Virus record (IMG/VR): IMGVR_UViG_3300005613_000224
Span: 1 to 34,485 of that record
DNA: 34,485 nucleotides
DNA from: a virus
Reading direction: 5' to 3' (one strand)
Positions 704 to 34,485 of the stretch are shown piece by piece (position 1 is the stretch's first letter; every line of letters starts with the position of its first letter). Below the pieces are notes generated by a model. It ran no database searches. It worked only from the letters and a program-made list of their open reading frames with translations, and was not told the origin of the DNA. The position numbers and the translations under genes were made by a program.

Positions 704-1486
704 ATGAATACATATGAACTCTCTCGGAACTGGTTTGATTTTAGCTTTTCGAATCCCGACAAGATAAAACCTATTCATTCAGCCGTTTATTTCTTCGCGA
801 TTGAGCATTGCAATAGGTTAGGATGGAAAGATAAATTTGGATTCCCTTCTCAAATGGTTATGGAGGCAATCGGTGTCAAGAATTGGAGGACTTATTCTAA
901 GGCGTTGAATGATTTAGTCGAATGGGGATTCATTCAGATGATAGAAATCAGTAAAAATCAGTACAGTTCAAATATAATTGCTATTGTAAAAAATACCAAA
1001 GCACAGTCAAAAGCATTAGACAAAGCACTGCAAAAGCATGGTACAAAGCAAAGTCAAAGCACTGTTAGTATAGATAAACAATTAAACAATAAACAAGAAA
1101 CAATAAAACAATATAGTCAGAACGTTTTGCAAACGTTTGACGACTGTCTAAAATTATTTGATGATCATCTTCATCCGAAAACAAGAAAACAGTCTGATAA
1201 TTGGAAGGACACGATCGACAAATTAAATCGAATCGAAAAGATTCCTTTCGAAAACATTTTGGATATTGTCAGGAAAACGCGTGAAGATCCGTTTTGGTCC
1301 AAGAACTTTTTGTCACTTACCAAATTAAGAAAAAAAGATTCAGACGGCGTTCTGTACTGCGTGAAGTTTAATGAACAAATCAAATCAAATGCAAAAAATA
1401 AACGAAATAATTCAAGCCAGCAAGCCGTCAGCGACGAACGACTTGCAGAAATTTACGCAAAGGTGTTCGCTGACAAAAAAGAATGA
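704..1486 (+). CDS. Replication initiator (lambda O-like layout), 260 aa, allele A
   Basis: The N-terminal ~100 residues (NPDKIKPIHSAVYFFAIEHC, then GFPSQMVMEAIGVKNW and LVEWGFIQM) resemble the winged-helix replication domain common in Bacteroidota phages. A hydrophilic linker (about 100-135) is encoded by iteron DNA. The C-terminal part (from YSQNVLQTF) is shared with allele B and probably contacts helicase or loader (inference). A GTG at 620 is in frame, but I start at ATG 704 because the upstream codons lie in the RNA leader and allele B has its ATG at the matching place, where the upstream frame does not continue. It overlaps the next gene by 116 nt. Confidence 0.7.
   Translation: MNTYELSRNWFDFSFSNPDKIKPIHSAVYFFAIEHCNRLGWKDKFGFPSQMVMEAIGVKNWRTYSKALNDLVEWGFIQMIEISKNQYSSNIIAIVKNTKAQSKALDKALQKHGTKQSQSTVSIDKQLNNKQETIKQYSQNVLQTFDDCLKLFDDHLHPKTRKQSDNWKDTIDKLNRIEKIPFENILDIVRKTREDPFWSKNFLSLTKLRKKDSDGVLYCVKFNEQIKSNAKNKRNNSSQQAVSDERLAEIYAKVFADKKE
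997..1066 (+). other. Probable replication origin iterons, allele A
   Basis: Six copies of AAAGCA begin at 998, 1010, 1022, 1033, 1045 and 1056, spaced 11-12 bp, about one helical turn. Most are preceded by C or A and extend to AAAGCAnnG (AAAGCACTG twice). They lie in the linker of the initiator gene, as the lambda ori lies inside gene O. An AT-rich tract follows at once. Confidence 0.6.
1067..1117 (+). other. AT-rich tract beside the iterons, possible DNA unwinding element, allele A
   Basis: An almost G/C-free stretch with repeated AAACAAT words follows the six iterons and ends where the constant initiator C-terminal block begins (1110). Its position matches the AT-rich half of a lambda-type origin. 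Confidence 0.45.
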
Positions 1487-2720: not shown

Positions 2721-3164
2721 ATGTTAGCAACAATAACCATATCAATTTCACTATTCATCCAGTCACCAATCGAATTAGACAGGGCTTCGACTTACAATTG
2801 TGAAGTAAGCCAATGCGATTCTGATCCGTTGACGACTGCTGATGGTAGTCGAATAGACTTGGATAAACTTGCAAATGGTCAACTTCGGTGGTGCGCTTTG
2901 TCTAGGGATTTGATTTATGACGAACACCGTCAAAAGTTACACAAATACGATACAACCGTTTTCAGAGGCTTTTTTCGTTTTGGTGATACAATCATCGTCG
3001 AAAGCATTTCAAGTCCGCAAATCAACGGAAAGTGGGTTGTACGGGACTGTATGAATGCAAGATACAAACGGTCGATTGATTTTCTTTTCGATCCGAAGAA
3101 TAACAAACCTAAACTTGGGACGCCTAAAGATGTTATAATAAAAAATAAACCAAAACAAAGATGA
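2721..3164 (+). CDS. Secreted 3D-domain (double-psi beta-barrel) protein, 147 aa
   Basis: A hydrophobic N-terminus (residues 1-15, LATITISISLFIQS) looks like a signal sequence. The rest matches the 3D domain family: TYNCEVSQCDSDP, TTADGSRID, CALSRDLI, then FGDTIIVES and NGKWVVRDCMNARY with SIDFLF. In known relatives (MltA/YuiC-type barrels) the conserved aspartates serve peptidoglycan cleavage; the aspartates in SRDL, GDTI, VRDC and SIDF fit. It could act on the host cell wall early, or support lysis at a distance from the lysis genes. It overlaps the next gene by ATGA. Its C-terminal tail (NKPKLGTPKDV) recurs in the small product at 4405-4497. Confidence 0.65.
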   Translation: MLATITISISLFIQSPIELDRASTYNCEVSQCDSDPLTTADGSRIDLDKLANGQLRWCALSRDLIYDEHRQKLHKYDTTVFRGFFRFGDTIIVESISSPQINGKWVVRDCMNARYKRSIDFLFDPKNNKPKLGTPKDVIIKNKPKQR

Positions 3165-3388
3165 GTAGAGATAATTCAAGTAAAAGAATGTTCGCTAAAT
3201 GGGACAAAGAAGATGCTTTAATGTGGGAACGTAGATACAATACCTGCTTTGAAACTAGAGATAAATTACATAAACAACTAGATGAATGTGTAAACCTCCT
3301 GGATAGAATACTTCTACATGTAGATATAGGTTACACAAATCCATCAATGGAAATGGAAATAAAAGAATTCTTAAAAAAGATACGATGA
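3160..3388 (+). repeat. Direct repeat, unit 1 (whole 75-aa gene)
   Basis: About 228 bp that recur at 4180-4408 with five mismatches; the units are 1020 bp apart. The homology stops sharply at the start codon and stop codon, so the unit copied is one gene rather than an insertion element. Confidence 0.85.
3161..3388 (+). CDS. Hypothetical 75-aa protein, first copy of a duplicated gene
   Basis: A charged helical protein (MFAKWDKEDALMWERRYNTC, then KLHKQLDECVNLLDRIL) with a likely coiled coil at residues 30-52. No family recognised. It starts by ATGA overlap with the 3D-domain gene and ends by ATGA overlap with the Cys-rich gene. The whole gene is repeated at 4181-4408 with five base differences, all changing the protein. 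Codon use favours AGA. Confidence 0.6.
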   Translation: MSRDNSSKRMFAKWDKEDALMWERRYNTCFETRDKLHKQLDECVNLLDRILLHVDIGYTNPSMEMEIKEFLKKIR

Positions 3389-4179: not shown

Positions 4180-4408
4180 GATGCCTAGAGATAATTCAAG
4201 TAAAAGAATGTTCGCTAAATGGGACAAAGAAGATGCTTTAATGTGGGAACGTAGATACAATACCTGCTTTGAAACTAGAGATAAATTACATAAACAACTA
4301 GATGAATGTGTAAACCTCCTGGATAGAATACTTCTACATTTAGATATAGGTTACACAAATCCATCAATGGAAAGGGAAATAAAAGAATTATTAAAAAAGA
4401 TACGATGA
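4180..4408 (+). repeat. Direct repeat, unit 2 (whole 75-aa gene)
   Basis: Partner of 3160-3388. Recombination between the two direct repeats would delete the three genes at 3385-4179. Confidence 0.85.
4181..4408 (+). CDS. Hypothetical 75-aa protein, second copy of the duplicated gene
   Basis: Same length as the copy at 3161-3388. The changes are S2P (two bases), V54L, M65R and F70L; there is no silent change among five substitutions. It starts one base after the preceding TAA and ends in an ATGA overlap with a 30-aa frame. The near identity indicates recent duplication or gene conversion. Confidence 0.6.
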   Translation: MPRDNSSKRMFAKWDKEDALMWERRYNTCFETRDKLHKQLDECVNLLDRILLHLDIGYTNPSMEREIKELLKKIR

Positions 4409-27875: not shown

Positions 27876-29675
27876 TTATCTCCTTCCAAATGTTATCACC
27901 TGTGACCATTCGTGACGGCATCCAGGTTCGTTCTTGTTTGTGTTCGGATTATGATACCAACCTCCACGATATGCGAACACGTTAGGTCCGATCGCTTCGA
28001 TTTCCTCCCTAGTATAAAGACGGTTCAATTCCATTAATGTTTTGCAAAAATTACGACTTTCACCGCCCGGAACTAAATTAGGCGCATCGGCTCGCAATCG
28101 GTATTCATACATAATTTCCATTGATTCAACGTCATTGATCGCAATTTGTCGCCGTCCTGCTGTTGTGACCTGACCTGATTTCGTGATCAATCCTTTTTCG
28201 ATTAATACCTGATAGATTCCTGCCAGTTCACGACCTGAAACGTCCAACGCCTTTCTGATGTTGTTGAATCCTTGATTTTCCTGAATCAAATTCAATGCTT
28301 GCTGTTCGTTGTCTGATAAGGTTGCGAATTTACTTTTTGCAAGTTCAATCAAATCATTTTTTGATTTGTCATGACCTGAAAAAGATTCCAATACATTAAA
28401 ATTCTCTTTCGCCTCACCTTTCAATTTTAAGCTTTCAAGGATTTCATCCTGTTCCTTCATCTTCTGTTCGCGCTCCGTTTCCTTTTCGATAATGAATGCC
28501 GGTCGTTCTTCTTCTTTTGGCAAATTCAACTCAACCCGATTGAATGTCAATTCGCCTTGAATGCCTGCGATGTCGTTCATTATCCAATTTAAGATGGACA
28601 GTATTGCCTCGCGCCTGCCTTCAAAATAATTCGCATCCATTATTGCGTATCCGATTTCCAGTTCCGATGCATTGAATGATCCTTCTTGTTTTACTCCGAA
28701 TAATGTCGGAACAACTACTTCATGTGCATAAATGATTGACTGTTCTGCGCCTTTTTTCGAATTTGCATATCTGTCGGGTAGGTTGTTCCCTTGTAGACTT
28801 TCAATATGCGGTTTCATATCTTGACCATTGCCATAAACAACCATTGATCGACCTGCCTGCAAACCTCCTGTCGATGATGCGCTTAAATCCATTTCAAGTT
28901 GACGCTGATCATCTTCGTTTTTCGGCTGTCCATTCGCCAGATAAATCAACGTCCCAAGACTGAAACCGTTGTGAATTTCGCTATTGTTATAAACGCCGAT
29001 TTCAATCAATGTATCAATGTCCGTAATTGCACCTGCGTAAACTGGTGAAGGATACCATCCCGGATTGATTTTCTTGCGGCTTCCTGGAATCAAAGATTCT
29101 CCGCATTCTTCCTGAAACAAAACATAACAAATACGCTGATCAGGATCGTTTAAATCGTATGGTTTTAAAGTTTCCCATTTCACTTTCGGATCTGTCCAAT
29201 CTTTTGCGATTCGGATGTTTCCAGTCAAATAAACATTGTTTTCATCGTCGTATGCGATTTCGAATCGAATTTGTTCAAATGGAATGTGTTCGATTTTCTT
29301 GTATTTCTTTGGACCAACTGCATTGAAAACAACCTTGACCGCAAACAAATTTGCTTTCTCAAAATCAGATGATAATAATCGGGTAATTTGTTGCAAGTTA
29401 AAATCTTTGTGATCACGCTTTCGGTTCTTGAAAAATTCCTGATAGCCTGATTCGTTTGGTCCTGTGTATTCCAAGCCGCCCGACACCGTGAAATGAACTT
29501 TTGATTTCACAATTCCACCGTGAATCGGATTCGCATCGGAAAGATATTTCAAATAATACGGATATTCGTTATACTTACCCCATTTCAAGACCTCCGATTT
29601 TTTATCGTCCTGCTCCAAAGGTTGCGGAATGTTCGATTTCTTAACCGATAACATTTGAACGTTCTTTCTATCCAT
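27876..29675 (-). CDS. Portal protein with C-terminal extension, 599 aa
   Basis: Residues 1-410 are portal-like: NEYPYYLKYLSDANPIHGGI, long helical and wing segments, then VVPTLFGVKQEGSFNASELE and ILSILNWIMNDIAGI. The portal ring is the DNA gate of the head. After a charged helix (about 380-410) comes a winged-helix-like stretch (LSDNEQQALNLIQENQGFNN, VLIEKGLITKSG) and a Cys/His end (APNLVPGGESRNFCKTLMEL; GCRHEW) resembling MuF/minor-head C-termini. It lies downstream of the capsid genes, an unusual order. Confidence 0.75.
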   Translation of the reverse strand: MDRKNVQMLSVKKSNIPQPLEQDDKKSEVLKWGKYNEYPYYLKYLSDANPIHGGIVKSKVHFTVSGGLEYTGPNESGYQEFFKNRKRDHKDFNLQQITRLLSSDFEKANLFAVKVVFNAVGPKKYKKIEHIPFEQIRFEIAYDDENNVYLTGNIRIAKDWTDPKVKWETLKPYDLNDPDQRICYVLFQEECGESLIPGSRKKINPGWYPSPVYAGAITDIDTLIEIGVYNNSEIHNGFSLGTLIYLANGQPKNEDDQRQLEMDLSASSTGGLQAGRSMVVYGNGQDMKPHIESLQGNNLPDRYANSKKGAEQSIIYAHEVVVPTLFGVKQEGSFNASELEIGYAIMDANYFEGRREAILSILNWIMNDIAGIQGELTFNRVELNLPKEEERPAFIIEKETEREQKMKEQDEILESLKLKGEAKENFNVLESFSGHDKSKNDLIELAKSKFATLSDNEQQALNLIQENQGFNNIRKALDVSGRELAGIYQVLIEKGLITKSGQVTTAGRRQIAINDVESMEIMYEYRLRADAPNLVPGGESRNFCKTLMELNRLYTREEIEAIGPNVFAYRGGWYHNPNTNKNEPGCRHEWSQVITFGRR

Positions 29676-30036
29676 TATATTCGTAATTTTGTCCTGCCGT
29701 TGGTGTGTATGATGTACCCTGATCTAAATCAGAATTGACACGCAAATCACCTGACGATAATAAATTCATAGTTGAATAGTCCGTTTCACCCGTCAAAGGT
29801 GATTCGTAAACAAACCATTCGTATTCCCCCGATTCAAGGTCCAAATCAGTTGGTAAAGTCAAATTGAACTGATCAAAACGCGGATTTGATGGAAGTTGAT
29901 TTTCCAATTCAATCAAGTTTTCAACCTGTGTCGTTTTATTGACAAACCGCCACAAATAAACGGGATCAGTTAATGTCAAAATATCGTCACACACGATATT
30001 CAATTTGTTCGCTGTATCTTTATTGATTATCAGCAT
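29668..30036 (-). CDS. Hypothetical structural protein, 122 aa
   Basis: Beta-rich: LTDPVYLWRFVNKTTQVENL, LTLPTDLDLESGEYEWFVYE, SPLTGETDYSTMNLLSSGDL. Small proteins of this look lie before the portal in Bacteroidota phages; probably head- or tail-associated. Overlaps both neighbours by short stretches. Confidence 0.5.
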   Translation of the reverse strand: MLIINKDTANKLNIVCDDILTLTDPVYLWRFVNKTTQVENLIELENQLPSNPRFDQFNLTLPTDLDLESGEYEWFVYESPLTGETDYSTMNLLSSGDLRVNSDLDQGTSYTPTAGQNYEYNG

Positions 30037-30217
30037 CCTTTTTCACGGTTTTTCTTGTTGGTTTTTTTGCCGTCAATTTCTTAGGCTTCGGCAATCCCTC
30101 CAATAAATCGGTGCGACCAATCTTGAACAACAAATCTGCGTGCGATTCCTTAACCGTGAACCGTCCGATTTTACTGCTGAAGATTGAACAACCGATTGCG
30201 CTTTTCTTTACTTTCAT
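30020..30217 (-). CDS. Small basic protein, 65 aa
   Basis: N-terminal part GCSIFSSKIGRFTVKESHAD, LLFKIGRTDLLEGLPKPKKL, then a Lys/Thr-rich tail (TAKKPTRKTVKKDADN). Possibly a head completion or DNA-binding virion protein; no family. It is preceded by a terminator and overlaps the next gene by 17 nt. Confidence 0.5.
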   Translation of the reverse strand: MKVKKSAIGCSIFSSKIGRFTVKESHADLLFKIGRTDLLEGLPKPKKLTAKKPTRKTVKKDADNQ

Positions 30218-30232
30218 ATTCTACTAATTTAA

Positions 30233-30272
30233 ACAAAAAAACGGAAACGGGCTTGATTGCCTGCTCCCGTTT
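30233..30272 (-). terminator. Intrinsic terminator after the capsid/tail tube genes
   Basis: Leftward AAACGGG (30272-30266) pairs with CCCGTTT (30251-30245), 14-nt loop, then CCG and nine T (30241-30233). It ends the high-level capsid transcript. Confidence 0.7.
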
Positions 30273-30295
30273 TATTATGTTGGTTAGGTAGGTGT

Positions 30296-30835
30296 CTAAG
30301 ATACAGGAACTAATAAAGCAAGTACATCAGCTTCGTCGATGTTCAAGGCACGTGTCAATTCTTTTCCTTCGAAATTCATTGTGTGACCTCTCAAATCTTC
30401 GTAGTTCTGTCCTGTTGATGCTTCCGATGTTGTCACGGTTAAACCGTTAGCAAATCCAAAACATTTCCATTTCGTCGTGCCTCCTGCCGGTGTCGCATAC
30501 TTAACAAAGAAAACAAGTCCCGTTGAACGTCCAAGATCTTCATCCATATCCGCAACTATATCGCTGTCCTCTTTGAAGATAACCGTACCAGTATGCGTTC
30601 TGAAAACTGAATTGTTTGTTCTGTCGCCTGTTCCGTTGTCTGTGAATACTGCGCTTTCCATGTCAGGTGTCCAGGTGTACGCCTGATTTCCTGTTGTCAT
30701 TGCAATCGCTGTAATTTCACGACCTGTCAAAGTTGTGTTGTCTTGGTCGATCTTGCAAAGTTCAGCAACAACAACACGTTCAACGCCTCCGTTTTCTCTC
30801 TCGCACGATTTTACATAATCATCAATTGTAATCAT
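30296..30835 (-). CDS. Probable major tail (tube) protein, 179 aa
   Basis: Beta-sandwich pattern: LTGREITAIAMTTGNQAYTW, TGTVIFKEDSDIVADMDED, LGRSTGLVFFVKYATPAGG, KWKCFGFANGLTVTTSEAST, DLRGHTMNFEGKELTRAL. The last segment is typical of tail tube proteins. Bounded by hairpins on both sides, as expected for an abundant product. Its place next to the capsid gene rather than beside the tail chaperone is unusual. Confidence 0.55.
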   Translation of the reverse strand: MITIDDYVKSCERENGGVERVVVAELCKIDQDNTTLTGREITAIAMTTGNQAYTWTPDMESAVFTDNGTGDRTNNSVFRTHTGTVIFKEDSDIVADMDEDLGRSTGLVFFVKYATPAGGTTKWKCFGFANGLTVTTSEASTGQNYEDLRGHTMNFEGKELTRALNIDEADVLALLVPVS

Positions 30836-30863
30836 TTTCTATTTTTTTAATGGTGAATAAATA

Positions 30864-30885
30864 GGGGACGAACTAAATCGCCCCC
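30864..30885 (-). terminator. Hairpin between the capsid and tail tube genes, partial terminator
   Basis: Leftward GGGGGCGA pairs with TCGTCCCC (eight pairs, one G-U) with a 6-nt loop, followed by a weak TATTTATT tract. May protect or attenuate the capsid message. Confidence 0.45.
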
Positions 30886-30895
30886 GTTAAATGAT

Positions 30896-31924
30896 TTATG
30901 ATGTCGGTGTCAATCTCAATCTTGTGAAATACGCAGGGAATACATAAGCAACTCCCGTTCTCCATTTTACGCCGAATCTTAATTTCTCGTCATAATCAGA
31001 GTATCTCCAAGTGAATCCGTCTTTGTCGTTTTCAAGGTCTGTTGCATAGAACATATAACCGTGGCAAACTCCGTAAACTTTCGACGTTGTGTCAAGTTGA
31101 GGAATTGAACGAACCGTCATGTTGGTAGTTGGTAATGTGAAGATGATTTCGCCATTCTCACGAACAACCTCAACGCTTGATGCGTAGTCCTTATCGTTGT
31201 AAATTTGATCGAGTGCAAATTGCGCCGTTTCGAATCCACAAATAATTTCCGCACCGATTGTGTCTTTGTGACGTTTTACGATTGTCGGCATTGCGTTATA
31301 AACCTCCTTCAATACATCAAATCCGTTTGATGCTGTGATCGCTGTTTCGGTAGAATAAGCAACATTCAAATCTCCGTCATTATCCCATTGCTTCGCAAAT
31401 CCATTGTAGAAAACAAGGTTTGAATCAAGTGACGCGGTGTCCCCGTTCATGATCAGATTCTCATCAAGCTCCTGCGCTCTCATTTGGTAATAAGAAAGCA
31501 TTGCGTCTGCAAATGATGGCGGCGTTTCGTCTTGTGCATTCGCTCCGACTGCGTTCATGATTTGCGCCCATGTTTCATTTAGGTTTTCGTTACAGTATTC
31601 TTCCTGAATCTTAACGCGAACCGTGCTGATTGAAACATCAGTCAAGATCATCCCACCGCTTGCGTTCCATCCGCAAGATGATGCCGCCTGTAAAGACGGA
31701 TCAGAGTTGATCAATTTAATTTCTTCCGAACCTTTAACGTTTTGCATCACGTTAATTCGGCTTTTGATGTTACCTGCGTTAATCAGGTCCTGCATCACTT
31801 CTTCTGATTGTTCGTCAACATACGTTCCAAGATCAGAAACATCATAATCAAATTCATGTTTCTTGGAGAATGTCGCTTTCAATACGTTGTTCTTCAATGA
31901 GAACTTAGCAAATTTCCACTTCAT
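30896..31924 (-). CDS. Major capsid protein, 342 aa
   Basis: Size and motifs fit an HK97-fold capsid of Bacteroidota phages: LINAGNIKSRINVMQNVKGS, IQEEYCNENLNETWAQIMNA, FADAMLSYYQMRAQELDENL and a beta-rich end GVKWRTGVAYVFPAYFTRLR. Directly downstream of the protease/scaffold gene, with a T-rich intergenic leader (31925-31955). No cross-linking Lys/Asn pair can be assigned by eye. Confidence 0.75.
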   Translation of the reverse strand: MKWKFAKFSLKNNVLKATFSKKHEFDYDVSDLGTYVDEQSEEVMQDLINAGNIKSRINVMQNVKGSEEIKLINSDPSLQAASSCGWNASGGMILTDVSISTVRVKIQEEYCNENLNETWAQIMNAVGANAQDETPPSFADAMLSYYQMRAQELDENLIMNGDTASLDSNLVFYNGFAKQWDNDGDLNVAYSTETAITASNGFDVLKEVYNAMPTIVKRHKDTIGAEIICGFETAQFALDQIYNDKDYASSVEVVRENGEIIFTLPTTNMTVRSIPQLDTTSKVYGVCHGYMFYATDLENDKDGFTWRYSDYDEKLRFGVKWRTGVAYVFPAYFTRLRLTPTS

Positions 31925-31955
31925 TTTTTTTGGTTTTTTTTGGTTTTACTTTTAT

Positions 31956-32654
31956 TTAATTTCTCAACGCTCTCCATCCTCCGGAATGTGTTGATTTTGC
32001 TTTCTTAGCCTTTTTCTGCTCTGACAGTCTTTCAACCGCTTCGCGTAATTCTTCAATTTCAGATGCAAGTGTTTTCACTTGACCTTCGAACGCCTCCTTT
32101 TGTGCGCTGAACTTTGTTTCGTACTCGTTGCGCATTGCCTTCATCGCTTCCTCAACCTCTGCAAGTTCTTCTTCTTCTGCCACTTCTTCAATAGAGACTA
32201 ATTTCCCATCTTCGATAACGATTGAAATGCCACCTTCTAAATCGTGAGGACCATCCGGCGCTGGTTCTGTCATTTCTTCGTCTAAGAATAAGGCAGTACC
32301 CTCAACCAATTCAGTTCCATCATAATAAATGGCAACACCATCAATTCTCATCACATTAGCCATTTCAACTATACCCTCAACCGATGTGATCACACCGTTT
32401 TCGTCAACACGAATCAGGATCATTTCACCGTCCATGTCGATGGTCATTTCACCTTCAGGTGCTAGAATTGGTTCACCCTCCGCAGGAACTACAAAGATTG
32501 AAACACCTTCAGCGAGATCACCGTCCCATTGAACCGTGTCGCCGTCTGTGTTTACTGCTTCAGCATATTTTTGCTTCGCATCGTATTTCGCGCGCTTTGG
32601 TTCAGACGTTCCGAATCCTAAACGCTCGAAAAGACTTTTTTTCTTTTCTGACAT
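31956..32654 (-). CDS. Possible nested scaffold protein, 232 aa
   Basis: In-frame internal ATG at 32654 preceded by the A-rich AAAATCAAATAAA, like start sites elsewhere in this genome. The product would contain the beta repeats and the coiled coil, without the protease. Supported by the domain border and by analogy with nested scaffolds only. Confidence 0.4.
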   Translation of the reverse strand: MSEKKKSLFERLGFGTSEPKRAKYDAKQKYAEAVNTDGDTVQWDGDLAEGVSIFVVPAEGEPILAPEGEMTIDMDGEMILIRVDENGVITSVEGIVEMANVMRIDGVAIYYDGTELVEGTALFLDEEMTEPAPDGPHDLEGGISIVIEDGKLVSIEEVAEEEELAEVEEAMKAMRNEYETKFSAQKEAFEGQVKTLASEIEELREAVERLSEQKKAKKAKSTHSGGWRALRN

Positions 32655-33215
32655 TTTATTTGATTTTTGATTTTCCTTTAAAAATTGGACAGGGATTTGA
32701 TTGAACCACCCTTCAAGACTGAAGCCCGTTCCGTGTTCTTTGACAAAATTCCAGGTGTCTTTTGATTCAATCCAATATGAGAAAATCAACGAACCTGGTT
32801 GCAAGTTCTGATCTTTAAACGCTTCAGGAATGTTTTGTTTGTTATCCCATACGAAATAAGATTCGATCATGTACGCATCACGAACCTTCTTGCCTGCATC
32901 ATGCATTAAATTCACGTTGTTGTGATAGCCGCCTTTTGCAAATTTCTTCATGATTTCGAACGTGTCTTGTTTTGACAGATAAACGTCGTATTCGTAACCG
33001 TCCGGATCACGTCGATAAATCAGTAAATTTGTAGCGATTGCGACACCTGTGACCACTTGCTTTTCGCTGTTGAACATTGTTTTGACCTTGATTTCTCGCG
33101 GTGCTTTGCTCATTGTGGTCCATGATTTTCCGTGCGCAGGTGAATCAACCAACGCCATGAAATCCATGCCCTCGGTCATTTCGTCAATTGCCAATCGATA
33201 AACTGGTCGCTTCAT
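31956..33215 (-). CDS. Prohead protease (XkdF-like) fused to repeat domain and scaffold, 419 aa
   Basis: Residues 1-175 form a serine protease domain: candidate H105 (NLMHDAG) and S166 in GTGFSLEGWF, the usual prohead protease motif. Residues ~226-345 contain two related beta repeats (DTVQWDGDLAEGVSIFVVPA; AIYYDGTELVEGTALFLDEE). Residues ~347-410 are a coiled-coil scaffold with a basic end. An internal ATG at 32654 (MSEKKKSLFERLG, M188) could yield the scaffold alone, as in lambda C/Nu3. It precedes the capsid gene. Confidence 0.8.
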   Translation of the reverse strand: MKRPVYRLAIDEMTEGMDFMALVDSPAHGKSWTTMSKAPREIKVKTMFNSEKQVVTGVAIATNLLIYRRDPDGYEYDVYLSKQDTFEIMKKFAKGGYHNNVNLMHDAGKKVRDAYMIESYFVWDNKQNIPEAFKDQNLQPGSLIFSYWIESKDTWNFVKEHGTGFSLEGWFNQIPVQFLKENQKSNKMSEKKKSLFERLGFGTSEPKRAKYDAKQKYAEAVNTDGDTVQWDGDLAEGVSIFVVPAEGEPILAPEGEMTIDMDGEMILIRVDENGVITSVEGIVEMANVMRIDGVAIYYDGTELVEGTALFLDEEMTEPAPDGPHDLEGGISIVIEDGKLVSIEEVAEEEELAEVEEAMKAMRNEYETKFSAQKEAFEGQVKTLASEIEELREAVERLSEQKKAKKAKSTHSGGWRALRN

Positions 33216-33251
33216 GTTATTAAGAGTAACACGAAAAAAAAATGTATCTTT

Positions 33252-33282
33252 TTTGCTTTTGTTATTATTATTATTAATTTTG
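33252..33282 (+). promoter_or_regulatory. Promoter of the rightward operon, allele B
   Basis: TTTG (33252-33255), 19-nt spacer, TAATTTTG (33275-33282): same geometry as allele A with one substitution in the spacer. The leftward protease gene begins at 33215, so the region 33216-33307 must also hold a leftward promoter; I see only TACATTTT, a poor match. Confidence 0.7.
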
Positions 33283-33307
33283 ATTTAAATAATTAAAATT
33301 TAAAAAC

Positions 33308-33784
33308 ATGGACAGAACAAACAAAATCACACAAAAGTACTTTCACGCTTTGAAGGATCTGCATGAATTATTAAAATGCACCGATCAATTTCATGCAACA
33401 AAATTCGAAAGTCAACGAAACGTTCCACACAACTTCATTTTATGCGCGGTCAAACACAAACTGATTGAACGCTCCGGAACAAAAAGAAATTACAAATACA
33501 AATGGAACACGATTCCCCCGAGTTTGGAAATGGCTGTGGAATTAAGATCTCAAATGACGAAATATCAACAGCAAAAAAAGGCTGAACGTGAACAATCTGA
33601 AAGCCAACACAAAATTCAATACCAATCGAATCAAGATCAGAATCAGAAACAAAAATCCAATCTTGATCCGGTAATTCAAAAAGAACACACAACGCAATCA
33701 ATTCAGATTAATAATCATTTTATCACAAAATCATTTTCGATATTTTGGGGATTATTTAAATTTGAACGCAGGATTGAAAAATAA
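33308..33784 (+). CDS. Putative winged-helix-like regulator, 158 aa (allele B)
   Basis: Same length as the gene at 105-581 and about 85% identical. The conserved parts are SGTKRNYKYKWNTI and the C-terminal FSIFWG-FKFERRIEK; changes cluster at residues 13-45 and 85-90 in the presumed binding domain, plus scattered linker positions. Divergence in step with the RNA leader and origin downstream suggests it may recognise an allele-specific site. Confidence 0.6.
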   Translation: MDRTNKITQKYFHALKDLHELLKCTDQFHATKFESQRNVPHNFILCAVKHKLIERSGTKRNYKYKWNTIPPSLEMAVELRSQMTKYQQQKKAEREQSESQHKIQYQSNQDQNQKQKSNLDPVIQKEHTTQSIQINNHFITKSFSIFWGLFKFERRIEK

Positions 33785-33788
33785 TTGT

Positions 33789-33796
33789 TATATTTG
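33789..33796 (+). promoter_or_regulatory. -7 promoter element of the initiator leader, allele B
   Basis: TATATTTG with the same flanks as at 586-593 in allele A. Transcription would start near 33803. Confidence 0.55.
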
Positions 33797-33802
33797 TCAA
33801 AC

Positions 33803-33899
33803 GGTCACGGGTTCAAAATAAGGTGATCAAAGAAATTATTAATAAGCCTGATAATGAAAGTAGCTTGAACCCCTACTGGATTTATCGGGCTTTTTTTAT
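33803..33899 (+). ncRNA. Structured leader RNA / attenuator, allele B
   Basis: P1: AAGCCTGATAA (33844-33854) with TTATCGGGCTT (33882-33892), one G-U, then T-run to 33897. P2: AGTAG (33859-33863) with CTACT (33873-33877). PK: GGGTTCAA (33809-33816) with TTGAACCC (33865-33872). Relative to allele A, two PK pairs, five P1 pairs and three P2 pairs are changed on both strands, while the linker and internal-loop bases TGAA/GGAT stay. This is direct comparative support for the structure. Confidence 0.8.
33844..33897 (+). terminator. Intrinsic terminator within the leader (allele B)
   Basis: An 11-bp stem with one G-U and seven T (33891-33897), 7 nt before the initiator ATG at 33905. Same position as in allele A. 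Confidence 0.75.
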
Positions 33900-33904
33900 T
33901 CAAT

Positions 33905-34485
33905 ATGGCACAAGGAAAAAAATCATTCATATTGTATTTAGACCAACGCGGTATCTTTGACAAGTTAACCGATGAACAGGCAGGAAGATTGATCAAACAT
34001 ATTTACGCTTATTGCGCTGATGAAAATCCTGAATGCGATTTTGTGACGGACTTAGCATTTGAATCGATCAAACAGGCTCTGAAACGTGATTTGAAAAAAT
34101 TTGAATCAATCAAAGAAAAACGGAGAAAAGCCGGAAGAAAATCAGCAGAAAAACGCGCTGAACAAAAGTCAACAAATTCAACACATGTTAAAAGTGTTGA
34201 ACAAACGTCAACAAATCCAACTGTTAATGATAATGATAATGTTAATGTTAATGTTAATGTTAATGTAAATGATTCTTTAAATAAAGAATATAGTCAGAAC
34301 GTTTTGCAAACGTTTGACGACTGTCTAAAATTATTTGATGATCATCTTCATCCGAAAACAAAAAAACAGTCTGATAATTGGAAGGACACGATCGACAAAT
34401 TAAATCGAATCGAAAAGATTCCTTTCGAAAACATTTTGGATATTGTCAGGAAAACGCGTGAAGATCCGTTTTGGTCCAAGAACTT
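33905..34485 (+). CDS. Replication initiator, allele B, truncated by the window end (193 codons present)
   Basis: The N-terminal ~90 residues (FILYLDQRGIFDKLTDEQAG, RLIKHIYAYCADENPE, KEKRRKAGRKSAEK) belong to the DUF6291-type domain seen in initiators of Bacteroidota phages and differ completely from allele A. A repetitive Asn/Val/Asp linker follows (about 105-122). From YSQNVLQTFDDCLKLFDDHL it is identical to allele A but for K/R in HPKTKKQ. The start lies just after the leader terminator. The frame is open at the window edge. Confidence 0.75.
   Translation, partial: MAQGKKSFILYLDQRGIFDKLTDEQAGRLIKHIYAYCADENPECDFVTDLAFESIKQALKRDLKKFESIKEKRRKAGRKSAEKRAEQKSTNSTHVKSVEQTSTNPTVNDNDNVNVNVNVNVNDSLNKEYSQNVLQTFDDCLKLFDDHLHPKTKKQSDNWKDTIDKLNRIEKIPFENILDIVRKTREDPFWSKN
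34159..34221 (+). other. Origin-like direct repeats, allele B
   Basis: Two 24-nt direct repeats at 34159-34182 and 34198-34221 (core GTCAACAAATTCAAC against GTCAACAAATCCAAC) with two mismatches, 39 nt apart. They lie in the linker of the initiator gene at the same place as the AAAGCA iterons of allele A but with unrelated sequence. Confidence 0.5.
34223..34280 (+). repeat. Hexamer repeat tract (GTTAAT/GATAAT), possible DNA unwinding element
   Basis: Eight tandem hexamers (GTTAAT, GATAAT twice, GTTAAT four times, GTAAAT) encode the NDNVNVNV linker. Very AT-rich and directly after the 24-nt repeats, it has the place of the AT-rich part of a lambda-type origin. Slippage here would change linker length by two residues per unit. 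Confidence 0.55.

Follow-up and report, generated by a model that had tools for sequence, protein, structure and literature searches.

In phage lambda, the origin iterons and an AT-rich region lie within the gene of the initiator O, whose N-terminal part serves recognition and whose C-terminal part serves recruitment (PMC7466680). Hybrids of lambda with phi80 and with 82 served to define this specificity (cited in PMC6022878); the lambdoid replication genes compared here are those of lambda, phi80, 82, P22 and Stx phages. In the RepA_N plasmids pSK41 and pPR9, the origin lies inside rep, between a winged-helix N-terminal domain (NTD) and the C-terminal domain (CTD). In pPR9, a phage-like block has taken the place of ~500 bp spanning NTD and origin, whereas CTD (>97%) and leader (99%) were kept, and pPR9 and its counterpart replicon are compatible (PMC5703833). 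Short determinants are also on record: six residues determine origin specificity in pT181 (PMC5703833), and the iteron-related domain of geminivirus Rep is a short protein stretch that determines or co-varies with the origin repeat type (PMC12548392).

Here, we analysed a stretch of viral DNA of 34,485 nucleotides (IMG/VR record IMGVR_UViG_3300005613_000224, positions 1 to 34,485; hereafter the window) that carries two versions of a replication initiator gene. We consider it likely that these are modular phage initiators with their own origin in the linker, and that their address cassettes are swapped between phages.

Two versions of one locus at the contig ends

The two gene copies lie near opposite ends of the window, each downstream of a copy of an open reading frame, ORF158:

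704 to 1486, + strand: replication initiator copy A, 260 aa
33905 to 34485, + strand: replication initiator copy B, truncated where the contig stops
105 to 581, + strand: ORF158 upstream of copy A, starting MDRTNKITQKYF...
33308 to 33784, + strand: ORF158 upstream of copy B

Positions 1-1308 and 33204-34485 are paired versions of the same stretch. Identity is 90.5% between 1-642 and 33204-33845, which include ORF158 and a leader RNA; beyond these 642 nt the N-terminal parts of the initiators are unrelated, and they are followed by a near-identical C-block of 199 nt (1110-1308 and 34287-34485) with a single mismatch (G1185/A, 99.5% identity). The preliminary description had reported unrelated N-domains and linker repeats (six AAAGCA in one copy, two 24-nt repeats in the other) on a C-block with one mismatch in 199 nt, and all of this was reproduced.

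Given the upstream homology of 90.5%, the two are copies of one locus at overlapping contig ends and not adjacent genes. The first letter of the window corresponds to the start codon of the gene located at 31956-33215. In two related contigs, L083 and L082, the locus is present once and extends from the gene at 31956-33215 as far as 1371-1901. L083 matches the window at 93.6% over 28389-33270, at 95.9% over the leader (585-706) and at 92.4% over 1110-2250, and between leader and position 1110 it has an N-part of its own, unlike that of the window; L082 follows the same pattern with a copy-B leader. This single-copy order indicates that the record represents a genome of ~33.2 kb, permuted or circular, with strain variants at its ends. 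As the flanks are ~10% apart, two strains were co-assembled, which is why two alleles occur in one contig; the data thus do not establish the earlier attribution of both variants to one phage population. Tandem duplication within one genome was ruled out by the single-copy synteny in L082 and L083.

Since the final 123 nt of the contig do not differ from copy A, the last join may be chimeric, and the junction of copy B, itself cut by the contig end, with exactly the C-block at 34287-34485 could be an assembly chimera. This raises the broader alternative that ends from unrelated phages were joined at shared k-mers and that no natural exchange took place, a reading also favoured by a C-block identity (99.5%) far above that of the flanks. 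While such an artefact may still account for the presence of both copies in one contig, it is improbable as the full explanation, since the same type of exchange appears in the independent single-copy contigs L081, L082 and L083 and in cultured Cellulophaga phages. The presence in a single contig of two alternative N-parts and a constant C-part could also reflect a programmed switch, such as an inversion or shufflon, that exchanges both N-parts within one genome. This is extremely improbable: L082 and L083 are single-copy and lack a silent cassette nearby, the scan of window genes yielded no convincing invertase or integrase, and the flanks differ by 10%. The co-assembly of two strains that differ by natural exchange remains our preferred reading.

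ORF158 is carried by L082 and cleanly missing from L083, and a family match was sought for it and none found. A search with the C-domain alone returned the two nearest contigs as sole matches; the downstream gene retrieved the same two, and ORF158 just one of these. Elsewhere in the window, two near-identical ORFs of 75 aa (3161-3388 and 4181-4408; M[S/P]RDNSSKRMFAKWDKEDALMWERRYNTCFETRDKL...) lie ~1 kb apart and represent a recent small duplication.

A winged-helix initiator with AAAGCA repeats

Copy A consists of the following parts:

704 to 994, + strand: N-domain, type NA, predicted winged helix (AF2, pLDDT 88)
998 to 1061, + strand: six AAAGCA repeats, proposed iterons
1062 to 1109, + strand: AT-rich tract, proposed unwinding element from its sequence and the same layout across the NA family
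1110 to 1483, + strand: C-domain of copy A, common to copy B, L081, L082 and L083 and, distantly, to phi18:3

The N-part of copy A matched no Pfam family, DUF6291 included. The fold predicted for the NA-domain aligns with the RepA_N structures 4pql, 4pt7 and 5kbj (Z 8.1-8.5, 105-108 of 118 residues), with Fur-like and LexA domains scoring equally. Residues 59-236 match the PHROG DnaD-like helicase loader (E 7e-10); other PHROG matches of the initiator are replisome organizer and O-like.

The AAAGCA copies start at 998, 1010, 1022, 1033, 1045 and 1056 (spacing 12, 12, 11, 12 and 11 bp), and 2000 Markov-simulated genes contained at most three per 70 bp. Every other NA-type initiator found (79/79) carries AAAGCA repeats irrespective of its C-domain, with 1-8 per locus, mostly 4-7, at 11- or 12-bp spacing. 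Within 69 distinct NA linkers we counted 396 AAAGCA, against 93 ± 8 expected from synonymous recoding of the same proteins. They occupy all three reading frames (195/84/117), at spacings of 12 bp (197) and 11 bp (106). The excess over recoding, the use of three frames and the spacing together indicate conservation at the DNA level, as would be expected if iterons were aligned along the same side of the helix.

A DUF6291 initiator with different repeats

Copy B has a different N-terminal architecture:

33905 to 34102, + strand: DUF6291 core, type NB (Pfam PF19808, E 3.5e-20)
34103 to 34153, + strand: basic segment of 17 aa, whose type tracks the repeat type
34160 to 34222, + strand: pair of 24-nt repeats flanking an inverted repeat, proposed iterons
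34223 to 34272, + strand: tract of (G[AT]TAAT)n, a candidate unwinding element in view of the third-position bias in the family
34287 to 34485, + strand: start of the C-domain, copy B (the block with one mismatch in 199 nt)

Copy B scores 72.4 bits against the DUF6291 profile (curated cut-off 27.2) and weakly matches the PHROG DnaD-like helicase loader or replisome organizer (E 5.5e-4). Structure prediction gives an all-helical DUF6291 domain whose long last helix continues into the basic segment. A PDB fold search with this domain matched no solved structure, which does not by itself make the fold new; sequence searches of solved structures and of NCBIfam with the initiator returned nothing relevant, and the paper library searched had none on DUF6291.

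The 24-nt repeats, at 34160 and 34199 (TCAACAAATTCAAC / TCAACAAATCCAAC, with GTGTTGAA), are identical at 21 of 24 positions, and the inverted repeat TTCAACACATGTTAAAAGTGTTGAA lies between them. The same motif occurs in L081, L113, Cellulophaga phi13:2 and Olleya Harreka_1, together with different C-domains. Other DUF6291 initiators carry other repeats: AACCCA with inverted TGGGTT, GATAGCAAACGCAT, GCGACCGCAT, AACGACCGTT, TCGCA or AAAGCAAAAAAAGC. The tract after the repeats encodes an NVNDNV/SDSDSD linker (34223-34272 of the window; the same stretch is present in 117 of 127 DUF6291 initiators) whose codons nearly all end in T or A. Across the family, asparagine codons in this tract are AAT:AAC 447:6, compared with 941:764 elsewhere, and aspartate codons GAT:GAC 299:9, compared with 1054:629. 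This third-position bias suggests that the linker is also shaped by a constraint on the DNA, and a codon-biased tract of this kind would fit an unwinding element.

As the linkers of both types are low-complexity and hydrophilic, their repeats might be mere protein features of a charged linker that lack a DNA function, and the exchange ordinary domain shuffling. We regard this as very improbable in view of the fourfold AAAGCA excess over synonymous recoding in three frames and at 11/12-bp spacing across 69 linkers, the inverted repeat copies inside NB linkers, and the T/A third positions of the tract.

A short segment tracks the repeat type

In a rank test on 37 sequences, the whole DUF6291 N-domain showed no relation to repeat k-mers (r~0), and core and segment were therefore analysed separately. 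Repeat similarity was compared with that of core, segment and C-domain across 120 DUF6291 initiators whose linkers were usable. Nearest neighbours by segment, with diverged core and unrelated C-domain, had a repeat similarity of 0.41, compared with 0.13 for nearest neighbours by core and 0.12 for random pairs; pairs with similar core and different segment reached 0.04. Standardised coefficients were 0.65 for the segment, 0.14 for the C-domain and 0.08 for the core, and the coupling persisted among pairs with diverged core and different C-domain (0.32 vs 0.06). With increasing segment similarity, the share of pairs with common repeats climbed from 1% to 100%, and core similarity had no effect on repeat sharing once the segment differed. 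Recurrent pairings include the segment motifs AGKAGANKRW with GATAGCAAACGCAT, ENxxKRW with GCGACCGCAT, NGxKGGRPKK with AACCCA, SGxxGNLKRW with TCGCA, and AGKKSAExR with TCAACGA/TCAACAA.

The preliminary description had proposed that recognition domain and cognate origin travel as one cassette. For the copy-A type this is upheld by the 79/79 co-occurrence with AAAGCA. In the copy-B family, DUF6291 core and repeats switch independently (0.13, compared with 0.41 for the segment), the very outcome named there as speaking against the proposal. Because the segment and not the core predicts the repeats, the travelling unit in the DUF6291 type appears to be the short segment of ~17 aa plus the repeats. 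The segment adjoins the repeats, so that some of the coupling is due to plain linkage; moreover, the sequences compared are phylogenetically related, which the permutation ignores. The coupling is accordingly a strong lead towards a recognition determinant rather than proof of recognition.

One alternative is that the N-part of copy B is no DNA-binding protein, that another protein, for example of the host, binds the repeats, and that the coupling reflects linkage. In its favour, the DUF6291 core has no solved-structure match and its type fails to predict the repeats. Against it, the segment predicts the repeats across diverged cores and different C-domains, and the C-side does so far less (0.65 vs 0.14), which makes the alternative unlikely and a candidate recognition role of the segment preferable.

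Exchange among related phages

Identities to the window for N- and C-part, respectively, are 36/95% for L083, 48/85% for L082 and 82/59% for L081. Comparison with L083 and L082 places the switch points at ~706/33942 and ~1102-1110/34231 of the window. We grouped 198 C-domains into 23 clusters, 10 of which (174/198 members) occur with more than one N-type, and the best C-domain pairs across N-types share 97, 95 and 90% identity. Further pairs of N-domain and iterons on the same C-terminus, which the preliminary description had suggested looking for in related phages, are thus at hand. Its notion of a fixed C-domain applies to L083, where N-domain and repeats were replaced and the C-domain kept, and fails as a general rule given the 23 C-clusters, 10 with several N-types.

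Among cultured Baltivirus phages of Cellulophaga, phi18:3 is 96.6% identical to phi13:2 and phi19:3 over 1.65 kb upstream, after which the initiators differ. phi18:3 combines a third N-type and GGGCAAGCAAA repeats with the window's C-family, and phi13:2 has the repeats of copy B on another C-domain. In these three genomes, the flanks are near-identical, and initiator, repeats and downstream gene are replaced. The leader is not linked to the N-type either, as copy A and L083 share one leader and copy B and L082 another. Together, these sequence comparisons indicate that N- and C-parts reshuffle both ways.

A structured leader RNA upstream of the initiator

Upstream of both copies we found a promoter box and a structured leader:

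586 to 593, + strand: TAnnTTTG promoter box, copy A (TATATTTG)
33789 to 33796, + strand: TAnnTTTG promoter box, copy B
598 to 697, + strand: leader RNA, copy A (model R1 44.7 bits, E 2.3e-6; covariation)
33801 to 33899, + strand: leader RNA, copy B (model R1 40.9 bits, E 1.6e-5)

The leader RNA of ~95 nt comprises a hairpin P1 and, after it, a hairpin P3 that forms an intrinsic terminator and has P4 at its tip, and the P1 and P4 loops are complementary and predicted to kiss. Copy A has P1 GGTCAC/GTGATC, kissing strands GGGCTGAA/TTCAGCCC, P4 TCGG/CCGA and the terminator stem AACCTTTGCAA/TTGCAAAGGTT with a T-run; in copy B, the kissing strands are GGGTTCAA/TTGAACCC, P4 is AGTAG/CTACT and the terminator stem AAGCCTGATAA/TTATCGGGCTT.

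A strict scan detected the RNA in 55 of 124 DUF6291 leaders and in none of the shuffled controls. P1 and P4, which lie outside the scan criteria, had complementarities of 6.48 and 4.26, compared with 4.13 (max 4.58) and 2.59 (max 3.21) in re-paired controls. In an alignment of 11 leaders, pairing holds in 98.7% of cells, and both partners vary in 19 of the 27 pairs, a result that 0 of 500 shuffles reached. The covariance model places the RNA before NA, NB and NC initiators. All matches checked (49/49) are upstream of an initiator, 5-262 nt ahead of its start codon, and 48 of 49 related leaders have the TAnnTTTG box, which we take to be the Bacteroidetes -7 box, no more than 25 nt upstream of the RNA, in most cases at a distance of 1-4 nt. 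Against Rfam, the leader gave no match at gathering score and only chance-level ones. The element, which would form the 5' end of the initiator transcript, has the look of a regulatory RNA not described before, most likely a transcription attenuator of the replication operon.

Among 149 genomes from a single bacterial family, one contained the RNA. At locus L248 (RNA at G095:C164:314-412), which is probably a prophage, it stands just before an ORF (419-1216) for an initiator-like protein with a fourth N-type; a weak match in another bacterial genome (L246) sits among ordinary host genes.

Proposed mechanism and meaning

The anatomy, the DNA-level constraint on repeats and tract, the modular exchange and the segment-repeat coupling are direct observations, from which we infer origin function, binding, helicase recruitment and replication specificity. 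In the copy-A type, the front part would bind the repeats encoded just downstream within the same gene; in initiators with DUF6291, this role would fall to the short basic segment that closes the front part and adjoins the repeats. The AT-rich tract beside the repeats would then melt, and the C-domain may recruit the helicase of the host or the loader of that helicase; the scan of window genes revealed no helicase gene. When related phages recombine, front part and repeats would move together as an address cassette, the breakpoints falling at the leader or start codon on one side and where the tract ends on the other, leaving the partner-binding C-domain in place, and such swapping probably gives each phage a private replication address.

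More tentatively, and with somewhat less than even confidence, Bacteroidota phages may individualise replication by two portable addresses within one operon, a protein-DNA cassette and an RNA. If so, the former would consist of a segment of ~17 residues or a winged helix plus cognate repeats, with a readable segment-to-repeat code, and the latter of a kissing-hairpin attenuator in which compensatory changes alter the loop pairing from one relative to the next. Both would act like plasmid incompatibility determinants, so that coinfecting relatives could neither drive nor exploit each other's replication. With 127 different initiators of the DUF6291 type and 69 different linkers of the winged-helix type, origin specificity may be readable from sequence, and the old question of what determines replication specificity in lambda-like initiators, and why it diversifies, becomes directly testable. 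The data also suggest a function for DUF6291 and predict origins for many uncultured Bacteroidota phages.

Comparison with known systems

The preliminary description had called the gene lambda O-like. By sequence features the likeness lies in the anatomy, with iterons and an AT-rich region inside the initiator gene; the relation itself is weak, as neither copy matches Pfam Phage_rep_O and the PHROG O-like similarity is mainly in the C-domain (E 3.4e-4). Moreover, the N-types described here are unrelated folds and not divergent versions of one fold, and the copy A repeats are 6-mers at 11/12 bp. DnaD-like and replisome organizer proteins (PHROG 2514 and 4880) give a profile match that covers the C-domain and a portion of the N-domain; what sets our locus apart from them is the documented exchange of iteron cassettes over many unrelated C-domains.

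RepA_N initiators resemble the NA type by a nearly full-length fold match, although Fur and LexA domains score as well and the initiators did not match the RepA_N Pfam domain. The present system differs in belonging to phages of Bacteroidota, in its many more combinations and in the DUF6291 type with its short segment. Geminivirus Rep and pT181 are rolling-circle systems with unrelated proteins, whereas here the repeats lie in coding DNA beside the determinant. As both the replacement of NTD and origin in pPR9 and the lambda hybrids demonstrate, the principle is already known; what is new is its scale in Bacteroidota phages, the likely function of DUF6291, the short segment that tracks the repeats, and the leader RNA.
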